Assembly: GCA_947426865.1 (NCBI GenBank) | Contig: CANEFS010000011.1 | Location: 1 to 38,550, forward strand | Length of the DNA: 38,550 nt | Direction: 5' to 3' | From: an uncultured Coriobacteriaceae bacterium | GTDB taxonomy: Bacteria > Actinomycetota > Coriobacteriia > Coriobacteriales > Atopobiaceae | Shown here: piece by piece, positions 30,037-36,795 of the stretch | Layout of the letters: every line of letters starts with the position of its first letter | Position numbering within the stretch: the stretch's first letter is position 1 | Program-made: the position numbers and the translations under genes | The notes under the pieces: model-generated | What the model was told of the DNA's origin: nothing | Database searches by the model: none | Seen by the model: only the letters and a program-made list of their open reading frames with translations

Positions 30037-30102
30037 TTTTTTAGACAGAGATTTAAACGTGCACTTTTAGCTGCAAATTTCTTGTATAGAAATGGGTTTT
30101 CT

Positions 30103-31713
30103 ATGTCTGAGAAATCGAATTTTTCTACTCCCTCAACAACCGAATACGACGTTTGCATTATTGGCGCTGGAGTCGTTGGTTCTGCCATCGCCCGAGAGCT
30201 ATCGCGCTTCAAAGTGCGGGCAGTCGTCCTAGAGCGTGCCGAGGACGTTTGCACAGGAACAAGCAAGGCAAACTCCGGTATCGTTCATGCCGGCTTCGAC
30301 GCCCAACCAGGAACGCTCATGGCCAAATACAACGTCGCGGGCGCCGCGCGCATGCCGGCTGTCTGCAAGGAGCTCGACGTGCCTTACGTCAATAACGGCT
30401 CTTTGGTTCTCTGTTTTTCCGAGAAAGATATCCCCGGCCTTGAGCGCTTAAAGGACCAAGGCGAGAAAAACGGCGTCAAAGAGCTTGAGATAATCGATGC
30501 TAAAAAGTTGCGTGAGCTTGAGCCTCACATTTCTCCTGAGGCAGTTGCAGCCCTTTGGGCAAAGACAGCAGGCATCGTCGACCCCTTCCTTCTGACCGTG
30601 GGATTTGCAGAAAATGCCGCTGACAATGGCGTCGAATTCCGTCTTAACGCACAGGTTACAGACGTTTTTCTGCCTTCCGAGAAAGGCCTTTTCCAAGTAA
30701 GCTACGTCAATCCGGCCGCTCCTGAAGAATCGGAGCAACGGGTTTTGGCAAAGGCGGTCGTGAATGCCGCCGGGGTTTTCTCGGGAACCTTCCATAACAC
30801 CATTTTGCAAAAGGTAGCAGCACACAACAAAAACGCTGCTCCCACCAGCGAAAATAGCACTGGCGGCGAGGGAAATGCCGCGCCTTACGAAGGCGCCATC
30901 ACGGTCGCGCCCGCTTTCGCTCGCGACATTGAAATCGTGTGCCGGCGCGGCTCTTACCTTTTGCTCGACATGAACGCCGAGCCCAAGCCCACCCACACGC
31001 TCTTCCAGCTGCCGACGAAGCTGGGAAAGGGAATTCTCGTGACGCCGACCGCACACGGAAACACCCTCATTGGCCCCACGGCGGTAGACATCGACAATCC
31101 TGAGGGCATCGAAACAAGTGCGGCAGAGATTGAAGATGTAAAGCAAAAGGCGGGGAAGAGCTTCCCTGACATCCCTCTTGCCTCGGTTATCACCTCGTTT
31201 GCCGGTCTTCGCGCCCATGAACTTCAACACGAATTTCTTATCGGCATGATGTTTAACGGCTTCTTCGAGGCGGCTGGCATCGAGTCTCCTGGGCTTACCT
31301 CAGCTCCTGCCATAGGCGCTTCGCTTGCCGAAGAAATCGCAGACTACCTGGAGCTTCAGCCCAATCCAAACTTCGACGGACATCGCGATGGCATCGTTCG
31401 TTTTGCCGATAAGACCCCAGAAGAGCAACGCGCCCTTATCGAGAAAGACCCCGACTACGCACAGATAATTTGCCGCTGCGAGACGATTACAGAGGCCGAA
31501 ATCAAACAGGCCACCCATCGTTCGATTCCTGTGACGACTCTTGATGGGGTTAAGCGTCGTGTGAGAGCTGGTATGGGGCGCTGCCAGGCTGGCTTTTGTA
31601 TGCCGCGCGTGATGGAAATTTTGTCTCAAGAAAACAACCTTGATTTGGAACAGGTTAAAAAATCTGGACCGAAATCAGCTGTCTTGCTTTACAAGACGAA
31701 GGAGGAGCGATGA
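30103..31713 (+). CDS. GlpA-like FAD-dependent glycerol-3-phosphate dehydrogenase with BFD-type Fe-S domain
   Basis: A 536-residue flavoprotein. The FAD-binding fold starts with YDVCIIGAGVVGSAIARELS (GAGVVG 21-26), followed by the DAO-family region (TSKANSGIVHAGFDAQPGTLMAKYNV). The C-terminal part has C457, C459, C494 and C499 in a CxC...CxxxxC arrangement, the [2Fe-2S] BFD-like domain of anaerobic GlpA and related oxidases. The likely reaction is oxidation of glycerol-3-phosphate to DHAP, passing electrons to the next two proteins. Start: ATG 30103 gives a family-like N-terminus, but no good ribosome site is present and TATAGA at 30084-30089 is close enough to suggest a very short leader; TTG 30082 is an alternative. 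It overlaps the next gene by 4 nt. Confidence 0.88.
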   Translation: MSEKSNFSTPSTTEYDVCIIGAGVVGSAIARELSRFKVRAVVLERAEDVCTGTSKANSGIVHAGFDAQPGTLMAKYNVAGAARMPAVCKELDVPYVNNGSLVLCFSEKDIPGLERLKDQGEKNGVKELEIIDAKKLRELEPHISPEAVAALWAKTAGIVDPFLLTVGFAENAADNGVEFRLNAQVTDVFLPSEKGLFQVSYVNPAAPEESEQRVLAKAVVNAAGVFSGTFHNTILQKVAAHNKNAAPTSENSTGGEGNAAPYEGAITVAPAFARDIEIVCRRGSYLLLDMNAEPKPTHTLFQLPTKLGKGILVTPTAHGNTLIGPTAVDIDNPEGIETSAAEIEDVKQKAGKSFPDIPLASVITSFAGLRAHELQHEFLIGMMFNGFFEAAGIESPGLTSAPAIGASLAEEIADYLELQPNPNFDGHRDGIVRFADKTPEEQRALIEKDPDYAQIICRCETITEAEIKQATHRSIPVTTLDGVKRRVRAGMGRCQAGFCMPRVMEILSQENNLDLEQVKKSGPKSAVLLYKTKEER

Positions 31714-33152
31714 GCGAAACCTCCCAAAAAGAAATGACAGGGGAAAAGATGAGCGTAACCAGCGTTTCAAGTGCGAATCCTACGAGCGCCAAAGCAATTT
31801 CCGAATCCGATATCAAAGCGCTTCCTTCCCACGACCTTATCGTTGTTGGGGGAGGGCCGGCAGGTCTTGCCGCAGCTGTGGCCGCTTTCGATGCCGGTAT
31901 CACCGATGTGCTTATTCTTGAGCGCGACAATGAACTGGGCGGCATTTTGAACCAATGCATCCATAACGGTTTTGGTCTTCACACGTTTAAAGAAGAGCTT
32001 ACCGGCCCCGAATACGCTGAGCGTTTTGAAAAGCTTGCAGAAGAGCGCGACATTCCTTATCAACTGAATACGATGACGCTTGACATTGTGCCAGTTGATA
32101 TCGCCGGGACTCATGCCGGCTGTATCGTTTCTGCGGTCAGCAAAACCCATGGCTACCAGCAGTTTTTCGCTAAAGCTGTCATCCTTGCCATGGGCTGCCG
32201 TGAGCGTCCAAGAGGTGCCCTTAACATTGCAGGTACGCGACCCGCTGGGGTATTCTCAGCCGGCACCGCACAACGCTTTGTGAATCTTGAAGGCGAGATG
32301 CCAGGCAAGAAAGTGTTCGTGCTGGGCTCGGGCGACATCGGCCTCATCATGGCGCGCCGCATGGTTTTGGAGGGTGCCGAAGTCCTGGGTGTCGCTGAGA
32401 TTATGCCTTTCTCGGGTGGCCTTAAAAGAAACATCGTCCAGTGCTTAAATGACTACGACATTCCGCTCTTTTTGAGTCACACGGTTGTCGACATTCGCGG
32501 TAAAGAGCGCGTTGAAGGCATCACCATTGCAGAAGTTGACGACCACATGAAGCCCATTCCCGGTACCGAGAAAAGCTTCGACGTTGACACGCTTCTCCTC
32601 TCATGCGGGCTTCTTCCTGAAAACGAACTTTCCTCCAAAGCAGGCGTTCAGCTTTCGCCTGCGACTAAGGGTGCTGTCGTTGACAATACGCTGCAAACCT
32701 CGATTCCTGGCGTTTTTGCCTGCGGAAACGTGCTCCATGTTCACGATCTTGTTGACTACGTGAGCCAAGAGGCAAAACTTGCGGGAGAGTGCGCCGCAGA
32801 GTATCTCGAGAAGGGCGCAGGCGCTGCTGGCGCGTCCGATACCGAGGGCGAGGCAAGAATCGTTACCGTTAAACCTGGCAATGGGGTCAGCTACACCGTC
32901 CCTTCCATCCTACATCTTAACGCCCTGGCCCCCACCACTATCATTCGCTTTCGCGTGCGCGCCGTCTTTAAGAGGGCTGCCATTAAAGTGACGCTTAACG
33001 GCGAGGAGCTTATGAGCAAGAAACGCCCCGTTATGGCCCCGGGGGAGATGGAACAAGTAATTCTTGCTAAAGAAAAGATTTTCTCGGCTCTTGAAAATAC
33101 GAACCCACAAGGCTCTGAGAGCGTCTTAGAGATTTCCATCGAGCAAAGCTAG
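31710..33152 (+). CDS. FAD/NAD-dependent oxidoreductase, GlpB-position partner
   Basis: A 480-residue pyridine nucleotide-disulfide oxidoreductase-like protein (COG0446 type). The FAD motif VVGGGPAGLAAA is at about 45-56 after a 40-residue Ser/Thr-rich leader, and an NAD-binding motif VLGSGDIGLIMARR is at about 204-217; ACGNVLHVHDLVDYVSQEA is the usual second FAD contact. No CxxxxC redox-active disulfide is seen after the FAD motif (NQCIHNGFGL has one Cys). It probably moves electrons between the upstream dehydrogenase and NAD or another carrier. The ATGA overlap with the preceding gene and AAGGAGG 4 nt before the ATG support tight coupling. An ATG at 31749 is a possible later start. Confidence 0.87.
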   Translation: MSETSQKEMTGEKMSVTSVSSANPTSAKAISESDIKALPSHDLIVVGGGPAGLAAAVAAFDAGITDVLILERDNELGGILNQCIHNGFGLHTFKEELTGPEYAERFEKLAEERDIPYQLNTMTLDIVPVDIAGTHAGCIVSAVSKTHGYQQFFAKAVILAMGCRERPRGALNIAGTRPAGVFSAGTAQRFVNLEGEMPGKKVFVLGSGDIGLIMARRMVLEGAEVLGVAEIMPFSGGLKRNIVQCLNDYDIPLFLSHTVVDIRGKERVEGITIAEVDDHMKPIPGTEKSFDVDTLLLSCGLLPENELSSKAGVQLSPATKGAVVDNTLQTSIPGVFACGNVLHVHDLVDYVSQEAKLAGECAAEYLEKGAGAAGASDTEGEARIVTVKPGNGVSYTVPSILHLNALAPTTIIRFRVRAVFKRAAIKVTLNGEELMSKKRPVMAPGEMEQVILAKEKIFSALENTNPQGSESVLEISIEQS

Positions 33153-33166
33153 AGGGAGACGTTTTT

Positions 33167-33538
33167 ATGGCGAAAGAAATTAAAGAACTTACCTGCATCA
33201 ACTGTCCTCTCGGGTGTGCTTTGGAAGTGACGCTTGAGGACGGCGAAGTGACTGCTGTGAGCGGAAATACGTGCCCCCGCGGCGAGGCGTACGGCAAAAA
33301 AGAGGTGACGAATCCCACGCGCATCGTGACATCTACTGTCCGCGTGACGGGAGGGACGCGTCCTGTTGTCTCGGGAAAGACGAAGGAAGACATTCCTAAA
33401 AGTGCCATCTTTGACATCACCGACGCGCTTGCCGACGCCCAGGTTAAAGCTCCGGTAAACATAGGGGACGTGCTCGTCGAAAACATTGCAGGAACGGGCG
33501 TCGATTTCGTCGCCACCGCGCATGTGAGTGCCGCTTAA
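33167..33538 (+). CDS. DUF1667 protein, probable Fe-S carrier
   Basis: A 123-residue protein with C10, C13, C17 and C36 in a CxxCxxxC-x18-C pattern (TCINCPLGC...NTCPRG), the same layout as the [4Fe-4S] domain at the N-terminus of molybdopterin oxidoreductases, but without the catalytic domain. It matches the DUF1667 (COG3862) family, regularly encoded after two glycerol-3-phosphate-dehydrogenase-like flavoproteins in anaerobes. A role as the third subunit (GlpC-like electron carrier) is inference from the operon. GAGGGAGA precedes the ATG. The 111 nt to glpK contain no clear terminator. Confidence 0.85.
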   Translation: MAKEIKELTCINCPLGCALEVTLEDGEVTAVSGNTCPRGEAYGKKEVTNPTRIVTSTVRVTGGTRPVVSGKTKEDIPKSAIFDITDALADAQVKAPVNIGDVLVENIAGTGVDFVATAHVSAA

Positions 33539-33649
33539 TGTGAAGGTGGCTTCCATGATGCACATGTACCGCATGATGGGTGTTGCTGCCGTTCAATATA
33601 GATAAATGTTTTTTAATAGAGGTCGCAAAATCCAAACGAAGGGGTGAGG

Positions 33650-35143
33650 ATGGAAAAGTATATTCTCGCGATTGACCACGGAACAACTTCCAGTCGAGCC
33701 ATCATTTTTGACAAGGATCAAAAGATGGTCGGCGTCTCGCAAAAAGAAGGAAACGTCGAGTATCCCAAACCCGGCTGGGTCGTCCAAGACGCAAACCTCA
33801 TCTGGAACGATACGATGACCGTTATTGCCGACGTCTTCGACAAAACTGGCATCAGCCCCGAGCAAATCGCAGGAATCGGCATCTCCAACCAGCGTGAAAC
33901 AACCGTTTTATGGAACAGAAAGACTGGCCTTCCCGTTGATAAAGCCATCGTTTGGCAGTCGAGACAAACCGCCGACATCTGTGACGAGTGGAAGGACCGC
34001 GGACTGGAGCCTTACGTCCGCACTATGACGGGGCTTCGAATCGACCCGTACTTTTCGGCCTCGAAGATTGCCTTCATTTTACGCAACAATCCCGAGGTCA
34101 GAAAGCAAGCTGAAGAGGGAGAGATTCTCTTTGGAACAATGGATACGTGGCTCGTTTGGAAACTGACGGGCGGCTACCATCACGTGACAGATGCCTCTAA
34201 TGCCTCGCGTACGCTTCTCTGCGACATCGAGAATCTCGTTTGGGACCAGAAGCTTCTGAATTACTTCAACATTCCCGAAAGCATCCTTCCTAACATTATT
34301 GGTACCTCGGAAGTGATTGGAAAGACTTCTCCTTACGTTTTCTTCCAGCAAGAAATTCCCATCTCAAGTATCGTGGGCGACCAGCAAGCTGCCCTTTTTG
34401 GCCAACTTTGCCTTGAGGCAGGACAAGCCAAAAACACTTACGGTACGGGGGGTTTTCTTCTCATGAATACGGGCGAGAAAATCGTGCGGAGCAACTCCGG
34501 ACTTCTCTCGACGGTGGCTTGGAAGATTGGCGATAGGGTGACGTATGCCCTGGAGGGTTCGATTTTTGTTTCCGGATCGATTATGAAATGGATGCGCGAC
34601 AAGCTGCGTCTTTTTGACAACGTTAAAGACACGTGTGCTATGGCTGAAGAGGCAAAGACAACCGGAGGCGTCTATATCGTTCCTGCCTTCGTTGGCCTTG
34701 GAGCGCCCTTTTGGGATGAGCGCGCAAAAGCCTCAATTTCTGGTCTCACGCTTGGTACGAACAGAAATCAGCTCGTACGCGCAGCTATTGAATCGATGGC
34801 TTACCAGGCAAAAGATGTAATGGATGCCATGGTTAAGGATTCCGGTTTTCCTATCTCTCACTTAAAAGTGGACGGGGGAGCGGCCATCAACGACTTTTTG
34901 CTCCAGTTCCAATCCGACCTTCTGCAAGTACCTGTCGAGCGCTTCAAAGTGAATGAGCTTACCGCTCTGGGCGCTGCATTTCTCGCCGGACTTGCTGTTG
35001 ATTATTGGAAAGAAGACGAGCTCCACATCGAATCGGAGCGCGTTTTTCAGCCGCAGCGCGACGGGCAGGAGATGGCAAAGCGCTACGAAGACTGGATTCA
35101 TGCCGTCGAGGCCTGCCAAACGTTCAAGCCCGAGATGCTTTAG
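33650..35143 (+). CDS. glpK: Glycerol kinase
   Basis: A 497-residue FGGY-family kinase phosphorylating glycerol to glycerol-3-phosphate. Key segments: IDHGTTSSRAIIFD at the N-terminus, GISNQRETTVLW, WQSRQTADICDEW, GTMDTWLVWKLTGG, SSIVGDQQAALFGQ, KNTYGTGGFLLMNTG, and the C-terminal KVDGGAAINDFLLQFQSDLLQVPVER. ATG 33650 is preferred, with AAGGGG about 6 nt upstream, over GTG 33644. It supplies the substrate of the three oxidoreductase genes upstream; no glycerol facilitator gene is in the window. Confidence 0.97.
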   Translation: MEKYILAIDHGTTSSRAIIFDKDQKMVGVSQKEGNVEYPKPGWVVQDANLIWNDTMTVIADVFDKTGISPEQIAGIGISNQRETTVLWNRKTGLPVDKAIVWQSRQTADICDEWKDRGLEPYVRTMTGLRIDPYFSASKIAFILRNNPEVRKQAEEGEILFGTMDTWLVWKLTGGYHHVTDASNASRTLLCDIENLVWDQKLLNYFNIPESILPNIIGTSEVIGKTSPYVFFQQEIPISSIVGDQQAALFGQLCLEAGQAKNTYGTGGFLLMNTGEKIVRSNSGLLSTVAWKIGDRVTYALEGSIFVSGSIMKWMRDKLRLFDNVKDTCAMAEEAKTTGGVYIVPAFVGLGAPFWDERAKASISGLTLGTNRNQLVRAAIESMAYQAKDVMDAMVKDSGFPISHLKVDGGAAINDFLLQFQSDLLQVPVERFKVNELTALGAAFLAGLAVDYWKEDELHIESERVFQPQRDGQEMAKRYEDWIHAVEACQTFKPEML

Positions 35144-35170: not shown

Positions 35171-35896
35171 ATGGATGTAATGACGCCTGATTCACCTTCC
35201 ATTCCTTCTTCTGAGTCCTCACCTTCCGCAGAACTTGCCGCGCTGTTTGAAAGCGTTCAAGGTGTCGAGAAGTTCCTTGATAAACTGGGATCTGATGAGC
35301 CTACCCCTGGCGGAGGCGCGACCGCCGCGGTGATGGGGTCTATCGCGTGCGCACAAGCTTCGATGGTCGCAGAGCTCAGTCTTGCTAATAAAGAGTGTCA
35401 GAAGGATCCGACGCGTATAGAAACCTTGAAGGGTCTCTTGGCTTCTTTTAAGCAGCTACAAAGCGCCTTTAGCGCCCAAATTGTAAACGATGCAAAGGCT
35501 TACGGAGAACTAAGTGCTGTCTTCAAAATGCAGCGTGATACGGAAGCCCAGCGGCAAGAGCGCCACACTCTTTTGCAACAAAAGCTTGAAGAGGCCACTG
35601 CCCCCCCCTTTACAATCCTCAGATTTGTTAATGAAGCTCTTGAGGTGGTAAAGAAGCTTGCTGACGTTGCGTCCTCTATGTCTCGCACTGACTTAATTGT
35701 CGCAGCCCTTGCTTTGAAGGCGTCCGCTCGCGGAGCTGAAGCGATGGTTCTTGCAAATACCTGCTACCTTTCAGATTCTGAAAAGGCTGAAGAGCTTGAG
35801 GGTAAAGCAGCGAACGAAGCAGAAATTGCAGATTCTGTATCCGATGAGGTTTATACGCTGATTTCTGGAAAGGCTCCAGTTGGCGTCCAAAGATAA
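35171..35896 (+). CDS. fchA: Methenyltetrahydrofolate cyclohydrolase / cyclodeaminase family (FchA)
   Basis: A 241-residue helical protein of the formiminotransferase-cyclodeaminase C-terminal family. The signature FLDKLGSDEPTPGGGATAAVMGSIACAQASMV is at about 34-66, and a second conserved stretch NDAKAYGELS follows. Stand-alone members act as methenyl-THF cyclohydrolase or formimino-THF cyclodeaminase, making or using 5,10-methenyl-THF. A Ser/Pro-rich stretch (~5-22) precedes the domain. The adjacent FolD has lost cyclohydrolase residues, which favours the cyclohydrolase role for this protein. The ribosome site at ATG 35171 is weak; ATG 35180 is also possible. Confidence 0.85.
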   Translation: MDVMTPDSPSIPSSESSPSAELAALFESVQGVEKFLDKLGSDEPTPGGGATAAVMGSIACAQASMVAELSLANKECQKDPTRIETLKGLLASFKQLQSAFSAQIVNDAKAYGELSAVFKMQRDTEAQRQERHTLLQQKLEEATAPPFTILRFVNEALEVVKKLADVASSMSRTDLIVAALALKASARGAEAMVLANTCYLSDSEKAEELEGKAANEAEIADSVSDEVYTLISGKAPVGVQR

Positions 35897-35934
35897 TTTT
35901 TTAAAAAATTACTTGATAGGATTTTGAAAGACCG

Positions 35935-36795
35935 ATGGCAGAACTTTTAAAGGGAAAACCTGTTGCTGACAGGCTCGCAAATGCGTGTGCTGTGCGCATC
36001 TCGGCACTTCTTGACAAGGGGGTTCAACCGCGTCTTGCTATTGTTCGCATCGGTGACAACCCAGGAGACGAGTGGTATGCAAATGCTGCCACAAAAGAGC
36101 TTGCGGCAGCAGGCGTTGACTCTTTCGTTATTGAACTGGAAGGAAGAACCCCTCAAGACATCGTCGTTCACACACTCAAAAACCTTTCTGCTGACGATGC
36201 GGTAGCCGGCATTCTTTTGATGCGTCCACTTCCTGCACATTTCAATAAAGAAAAAGTTGAAAATGCCATCGCTCCTGAAAAAGATGTCGATGGTATGTGT
36301 GACGTGTCACTTGCAAAAGTTTTTCGCGGAGATTCAAAAGCATCTTTACCTTGCACCGTAAAAGCTGTTTTACATCTTCTTGATTTCTATCACGTTGAAC
36401 TTGAGGGCGCGCGCGTCGTCGTCGTTGGCCGCTCTCTAACGATTGGGAAACCCCTTGTTCAAGCTTTGATTAGCCGTGACGCAACCGTTACTCTCGCGCA
36501 TTCCAAGACCTTGAATCTCTCACAGCTGACGAGAGAAGCGGATATCGTTGTCTCTTGCATGGGACGCGCCCATGCGCTTACGGGAGAGTTTTTCTCGGAA
36601 AAAACGGTAGTTATCGACGTGGGAACGAACGAAGATAAGGACGGAAAGATGGTAGGAGACGTCGATTTCGGCGCGGTTGAGCCTCTTGTCCAAGCAATTA
36701 CGCCTGTTCCTGGCGGCGTTGGAGCTGTAACGACGGCATCTTTGCTGGAGGCGGTTGTCAGCGCGGCCGAATATCTTACAATAGAAAATTCATGA
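35935..36795 (+). CDS. folD: FolD-family methylene-THF dehydrogenase, divergent active site
   Basis: A 286-residue member of the FolD family, which normally has both dehydrogenase and cyclohydrolase activity in the same site. Recognisable parts: RLAIVRIGDNPGDEWYA, EKDVDG, the dinucleotide site VVVVGRSLTIGKPL, ADIVVSCMG, VIDVGTN and TPVPGGVGAVTTASLLEA. The conserved tyrosine is present (EWYANAATKEL), but the catalytic lysine four residues later (human K56) is alanine, and the glutamine of the VQLPLP motif (human Q100) is methionine (LLMRPLP). The DVDG aspartate remains. Substitution of that lysine in known enzymes removes cyclohydrolase activity, so this protein is probably dehydrogenase-only, working with FchA encoded 38 nt upstream. 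Confidence 0.86.
   Translation: MAELLKGKPVADRLANACAVRISALLDKGVQPRLAIVRIGDNPGDEWYANAATKELAAAGVDSFVIELEGRTPQDIVVHTLKNLSADDAVAGILLMRPLPAHFNKEKVENAIAPEKDVDGMCDVSLAKVFRGDSKASLPCTVKAVLHLLDFYHVELEGARVVVVGRSLTIGKPLVQALISRDATVTLAHSKTLNLSQLTREADIVVSCMGRAHALTGEFFSEKTVVIDVGTNEDKDGKMVGDVDFGAVEPLVQAITPVPGGVGAVTTASLLEAVVSAAEYLTIENS

Follow-up and report, generated by a model that had tools for sequence, protein, structure and literature searches.

The stretch of DNA analysed here (38,550 nucleotides, called the window throughout) very probably encodes, to judge from its sequence, a two-protein version of the folate step that is usually carried out by bifunctional FolD, its FolD being a member of an old, monofunctional subfamily that is associated with FchA. 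In the proposed scheme, FolD would oxidise 5,10-methylene-THF to 5,10-methenyl-THF, probably with NADP+ as cofactor because it shares the GRS and HSKT motifs with the human NADP enzyme. Hydrolysis of methenyl-THF by FolD is not expected, since the lysine that acts as general acid/base and the glutamine that positions it are both absent, and FchA would instead convert methenyl-THF to the 10-formyl-THF used in fMet-tRNA and purine synthesis. A second source of 10-formyl-THF would be Fhs, whose gene lies elsewhere in the genome. The original prediction was that a bifunctional enzyme had been split by subfunctionalisation. The predicted division of labour is strongly supported by the association of residues and gene, a gene fusion, and the failure to find either a second FolD or a formiminotransferase, but its proposed local origin is not.

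Membership of the FolD family is clear from the two Pfam domains, both of which score above their curated cut-offs (THF_DHG_CYH_C, E 2.7e-52, 176.7 bits against 27; THF_DHG_CYH, E 1.7e-27, 96.4 bits against 32.8). When the window FolD is compared without gaps with FolDs of known structure, among them 3p2o, its GDNPGDEWYANAATK falls opposite GDNPASQTYVKSKAK and its GILLMRPLPAH falls opposite GILVQLPLPDH. The alanine and methionine that had been predicted at the sites of the catalytic lysine and of the glutamine of VQLPLP are therefore seen as A52 and M96, and the YxxxK lysine and VQxPLP glutamine of bifunctional FolDs are missing. In Pseudomonas FolD, this lysine is described as serving in cyclohydrolase catalysis as general acid/base, with the glutamine positioning the lysine and an aspartate holding the pterin (PMC3338484); human Ser49 has also been proposed as part of the cyclohydrolase site (PMC6443876). 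Beyond the original prediction, this third residue is changed as well, to D45. Serine occupies column 45 in 100% of the FolDs that carry both lysine and glutamine (K+Q), and aspartate is found there in 82% of those that lack both (K/Q-less). Among the NCBIfam matches listed, the window FolD reaches no equivalog cut-off for bifunctional FolD. The dehydrogenase site and DVDG are intact, as had been anticipated: Tyr48, Asp117, Lys54, T141, GRS 165-167, D228, GDV and PVPGGVG are all present. The protein thus combines the loss of cyclohydrolase residues with retention of the folate-site tyrosine and aspartate and of the nucleotide-binding motifs, the pattern of a monofunctional FolD partnered by FchA, and fchA is present in the same genome.

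The gene directly upstream had been named fchA, and its product does match FTCD_C in Pfam (E 4.9e-43), with this domain alone and no formiminotransferase domain in its 241 residues. Its only NCBIfam match is the FchA model NF045657 (E 3.4e-28), for which the score of 98.6 bits lies under the equivalog cut-off of 275, and the closest solved chain is 7vg4, a methenyltetrahydrofolate cyclohydrolase (E 3.5e-18). The protein is divergent, so that the name rests on its context and on conserved residues: all ten of the invariant or nearly invariant columns of 72 relatives are kept (P46, G47-G49, M65, D107, A142, P146, D174 and N196). Both reading frames are open and lie on the same strand with a gap of 38 nt (Table 1). 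The two genes are probably carried on one message, as is suggested, though weakly, by this spacing and by the fact that no terminator-like site was found between them on the + strand.

Table 1. The fchA-folD pair of the window and the FolD residues discussed in the text.
Feature	Position (nt)	Strand	Description	Basis
fchA	35171-35896	+	241 aa; FTCD_C family; putative methenyl-THF cyclohydrolase	Pfam, NCBIfam, closest solved chain, conserved columns
folD	35935-36795	+	286 aa; predicted methylene-THF dehydrogenase, K/Q-less (monofunctional) subfamily	Pfam, alignment, census, tree
A52	codon 36088-36090	+	site of catalytic YxxxK Lys (human K56, E. coli K54)	alignment, census
M96	codon 36220-36222	+	site of Lys-positioning Gln (human Q100)	alignment, census
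D45	codon 36067-36069	+	site of cyclohydrolase-site Ser (human Ser49)	signature comparison
Y48	codon 36076-36078	+	folate-site Tyr, retained	signature comparison
D117	codon 36283-36285	+	pterin-binding Asp (human D125), retained	census, signature comparison

A glycerol-use cluster at window positions 30082-35143 leads straight into the pair, with 27 nt between the end of glpK and the start of fchA. Its members, named by eye, are an FAD-dependent dehydrogenase-like protein, an NAD(FAD) oxidoreductase-like protein, a small DUF1667-like protein and glpK. In most relatives, the place of this cluster is taken by fhs, and glpK adjoining fchA-folD was not found in the relatives' loci that were read.

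The genome to which the window belongs (1.04 Mb, 94% complete) encodes a single FolD, a single FTCD_C protein and, on a contig other than that of fchA-folD, one Fhs, together with two formyltransferase-domain proteins whose lengths approximate those of Fmt and PurN. A search for a second, canonical folD, which had been suggested with the original prediction, found none, 94% completeness leaving some room for another copy. As part of trying to understand how FolD type relates to the presence of fchA, we read every FolD in a draw of 149 genomes from the class Coriobacteriia. FTCD_C is present in 58 of these genomes, all from the order to which the window belongs. Lysine and glutamine are both absent from each of the 59 FolDs in fchA-positive genomes, and both are present in all 90 FolDs of fchA-negative genomes, so that A52 and M96 are not chance substitutions. 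Because of relatedness, only a few independent events underlie these genome counts, and Fisher p-values based on such counts overstate how many there were. Both states being deeply clustered, an independent-pairs sign test on a 185-row tree finds just 4 usable pairs and is uninformative. The split falls even within a single genus code (g17), where nine species have fchA and nine do not, the FolD type matching each time. Every fchA-positive genome of the class also has fhs, and folD adjoins fchA in all of them except G096, where the two are on separate contigs. In g17, bifunctional folD is directly beside fhs (for example in G048), and the fchA-folD pair is about 10 kb from fhs (for example in G142). 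Moreover, one genome of the same order, G102, carries a gene (L098:1501-3054) for a protein of 517 aa in which FolD is followed by FchA in one chain, which argues that FchA serves FolD. The FolD part of this fusion has alanine and methionine at the two cyclohydrolase sites, and the same genome has an ordinary fchA-folD pair (L097).

A similar rule is seen in a second class, for which we drew 118 Clostridia genomes and left some high-scoring FolDs of fchA-negative genomes unread. The K+Q pair is absent from 40 of the 43 FolDs read in fchA-positive genomes and present in 46 of the 47 read in fchA-negative ones (one lacks it). The exceptions are G171, which has one FolD of each kind, G234, G200 and G222. 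In G234, the FTCD_C gene lies beside a formiminotransferase and probably encodes a true cyclodeaminase; the 1.2 Mb assembly of G200 may be incomplete.

Several other combinations of these genes were observed. Phocicoccus has a K/Q-less FolD (L011) together with a second, canonical one (L178), and no fchA or FTCD_C gene was found in it. Salinicoccus likewise has K/Q-less and canonical FolDs (L197 and L179) and no fchA, its K/Q-less copy appearing broken into two overlapping frames. In a Dethiobacter assembly (L037:2992-4758), tandem FolD genes encode one protein with Lys changed to Ile and Gln kept, and another with Tyr changed to Val and Gln to His; a third FolD of this genome (Ala/Phe) adjoins fchA elsewhere. 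FolDs from candidate bacteria with genomes of about 1 Mb (L047, L048) have Tyr replaced by Phe and Gln by Glu, with Lys kept and no fchA. In WOR-3/Stahlbacteria FolDs (L023, L026), Lys is replaced by Gln and Gln by Thr, and a fused formiminotransferase-cyclodeaminase (G161:C25, G162:C73) stands in place of a separate FchA. Eubacterium brachy (G150, L003) has a K/Q-less FolD, and its sole FTCD_C gene is beside a formiminotransferase (G150:C17:109655-111184), so that membership of the FTCD_C family does not by itself prove a cyclohydrolase role; one protein may act in this organism as both cyclodeaminase and cyclohydrolase.

FTCD_C is indeed also the cyclodeaminase domain of FTCD, and in G234, G155, G161 and G162 the gene is beside or fused to a formiminotransferase. 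The window FchA might accordingly be a formimino-THF cyclodeaminase that takes part in the breakdown of histidine or purines and is unrelated to the changes in FolD, in which case FolD would remain partly hydrolytic through other residues, or methenyl-THF would hydrolyse spontaneously or be made and used through Fhs alone. We regard this as very improbable. No formiminotransferase domain was found in the genome of the window or in any of the 149 class genomes, leaving FchA with no visible source of formimino-THF, whereas 10-formyl-THF does have users. In addition, FchA occurs in exactly those class genomes that have K/Q-less FolD, and in G102 it is fused to such a FolD.

How the division of labour arose was addressed with FolD trees from which columns 52 and 96 had been removed, comprising a careful 64-row tree and a quick 185-row tree that includes other phyla. 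On these trees, the class's K/Q-less FolDs are placed with those of Clostridia, and its K+Q proteins with the K+Q ones of Clostridia; the state of the lysine changes once on the 64-row tree and five times on the 185-row tree. The coexistence of both kinds in one class, and even within one genus code, would be compatible with a bifunctional FolD of this lineage having shed its cyclohydrolase site once FchA had arrived, as the term subfunctionalisation in the original prediction implied. Forcing all FolDs of the class together, however, costs 157 log-likelihood units (AU test p = 7e-15), and the two kinds differ at many further sites, the K/Q-less signature comprising 45 (D), 49 (E), 127 (A), 144 (A), 264 (S or A), 265 (V) and 273 (H). 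Five of these residues, at 45, 127, 144, 264 and 265, are shared by the window FolD. A local loss of this type is therefore very unlikely. Since the two kinds do not form one clade, either the loss predates the lineage or the gene pair has been exchanged. On the basis of these trees and signature sites, the window FolD is a member of an old subfamily that also occurs in Clostridia, inherited or acquired together with its partner. There is hardly any prospect that the window FolD is merely decaying by drift with Fhs supplying 10-formyl-THF since, despite the small genome (1.04 Mb), the long FolD branch (1.2-1.4) and the presence of fhs, its frame is intact with all invariant motifs retained and the same substitutions typify a large, intact subfamily in free-standing genomes of 1.5-4 Mb.

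Returning to the two-protein reading, we suggest more tentatively that fchA and K/Q-less folD might constitute an exchangeable module that has been swapped as a unit with bifunctional FolD, most recently within one genus, and for which residues 52 and 96 alone would predict the need for FchA. The two proteins could perhaps form a complex that channels methenyl-THF; such a physical association would account for the adjacency of the genes and for the natural fusion.

The arrangement of K/Q-less FolD with FchA is widespread in the order of the window, and nearly all annotation, including the NCBIfam models that best match the window FolD, treats FolD as bifunctional. That the two kinds of FolD can be distinguished by two residues, nearly without exception in two bacterial classes, is useful for annotation and corrects metabolic models. 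Inhibitors or knockouts of FolD are expected to have different consequences in bacteria with the K/Q-less enzyme. Moreover, the genus with both kinds offers a clean comparison for asking why an organism would employ two enzymes where a single one can perform both of the coupled steps.

Precedent exists for this division of labour. In Clostridium perfringens, FolD is reportedly a monofunctional dehydrogenase and FchA the cyclohydrolase, both being needed to replace E. coli FolD (work attributed to Aluri et al., 2016). The genome of the window resembles this system in having a FolD that lacks the cyclohydrolase site, a separate FchA, and Fhs; it differs in belonging to another phylum and in that its fhs is not beside the pair, and activities that were reportedly measured in C. 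perfringens are predicted here. Yeast Mtd1 (1edz), an NAD-dependent monofunctional methylene-THF dehydrogenase, is also a FolD homologue without cyclohydrolase, but it is eukaryotic and distant from the window FolD (E 4.9e-07). The yeast enzyme is not known to have an FchA partner. Bifunctional FolDs (E. coli 1b0a, Campylobacter 3p2o and the DC domain of human MTHFD1, 1a4i) share with the window FolD the fold family, the folate-site tyrosine and aspartate, and the nucleotide-binding motifs, whereas the lysine, glutamine and serine that they keep are absent from it. A separate FchA exists in some microorganisms (PMC7219735, a source that also cites the study by Aluri et al., Microbiology 162:145-155, doi 10.1099/mic.0.000209), and a monofunctional enzyme has been mentioned for Peptostreptococcus productus (PMC6443876). 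As in the fhs-fchA-folD clusters of acetogens such as Acetobacterium woodii (PMC10472528) and C. autoethanogenum (PMC9618320), fchA adjoins folD in the window and the predicted reactions are those of the methyl branch of the Wood-Ljungdahl pathway; unlike in those clusters, the window pair has glycerol-use genes in front of it, and its genome carries fhs on a different contig. A literature search with strict wording, a weak negative for that reason, found no papers on a FolD/FchA pair in Coriobacteriia. The FolD/FchA arrangement is already known from C. perfringens, and the window pair is a further case in another phylum; new here are a residue rule that holds almost throughout two classes, the change of FolD type inside a single genus, the fused gene, and tree-based evidence against local subfunctionalisation.
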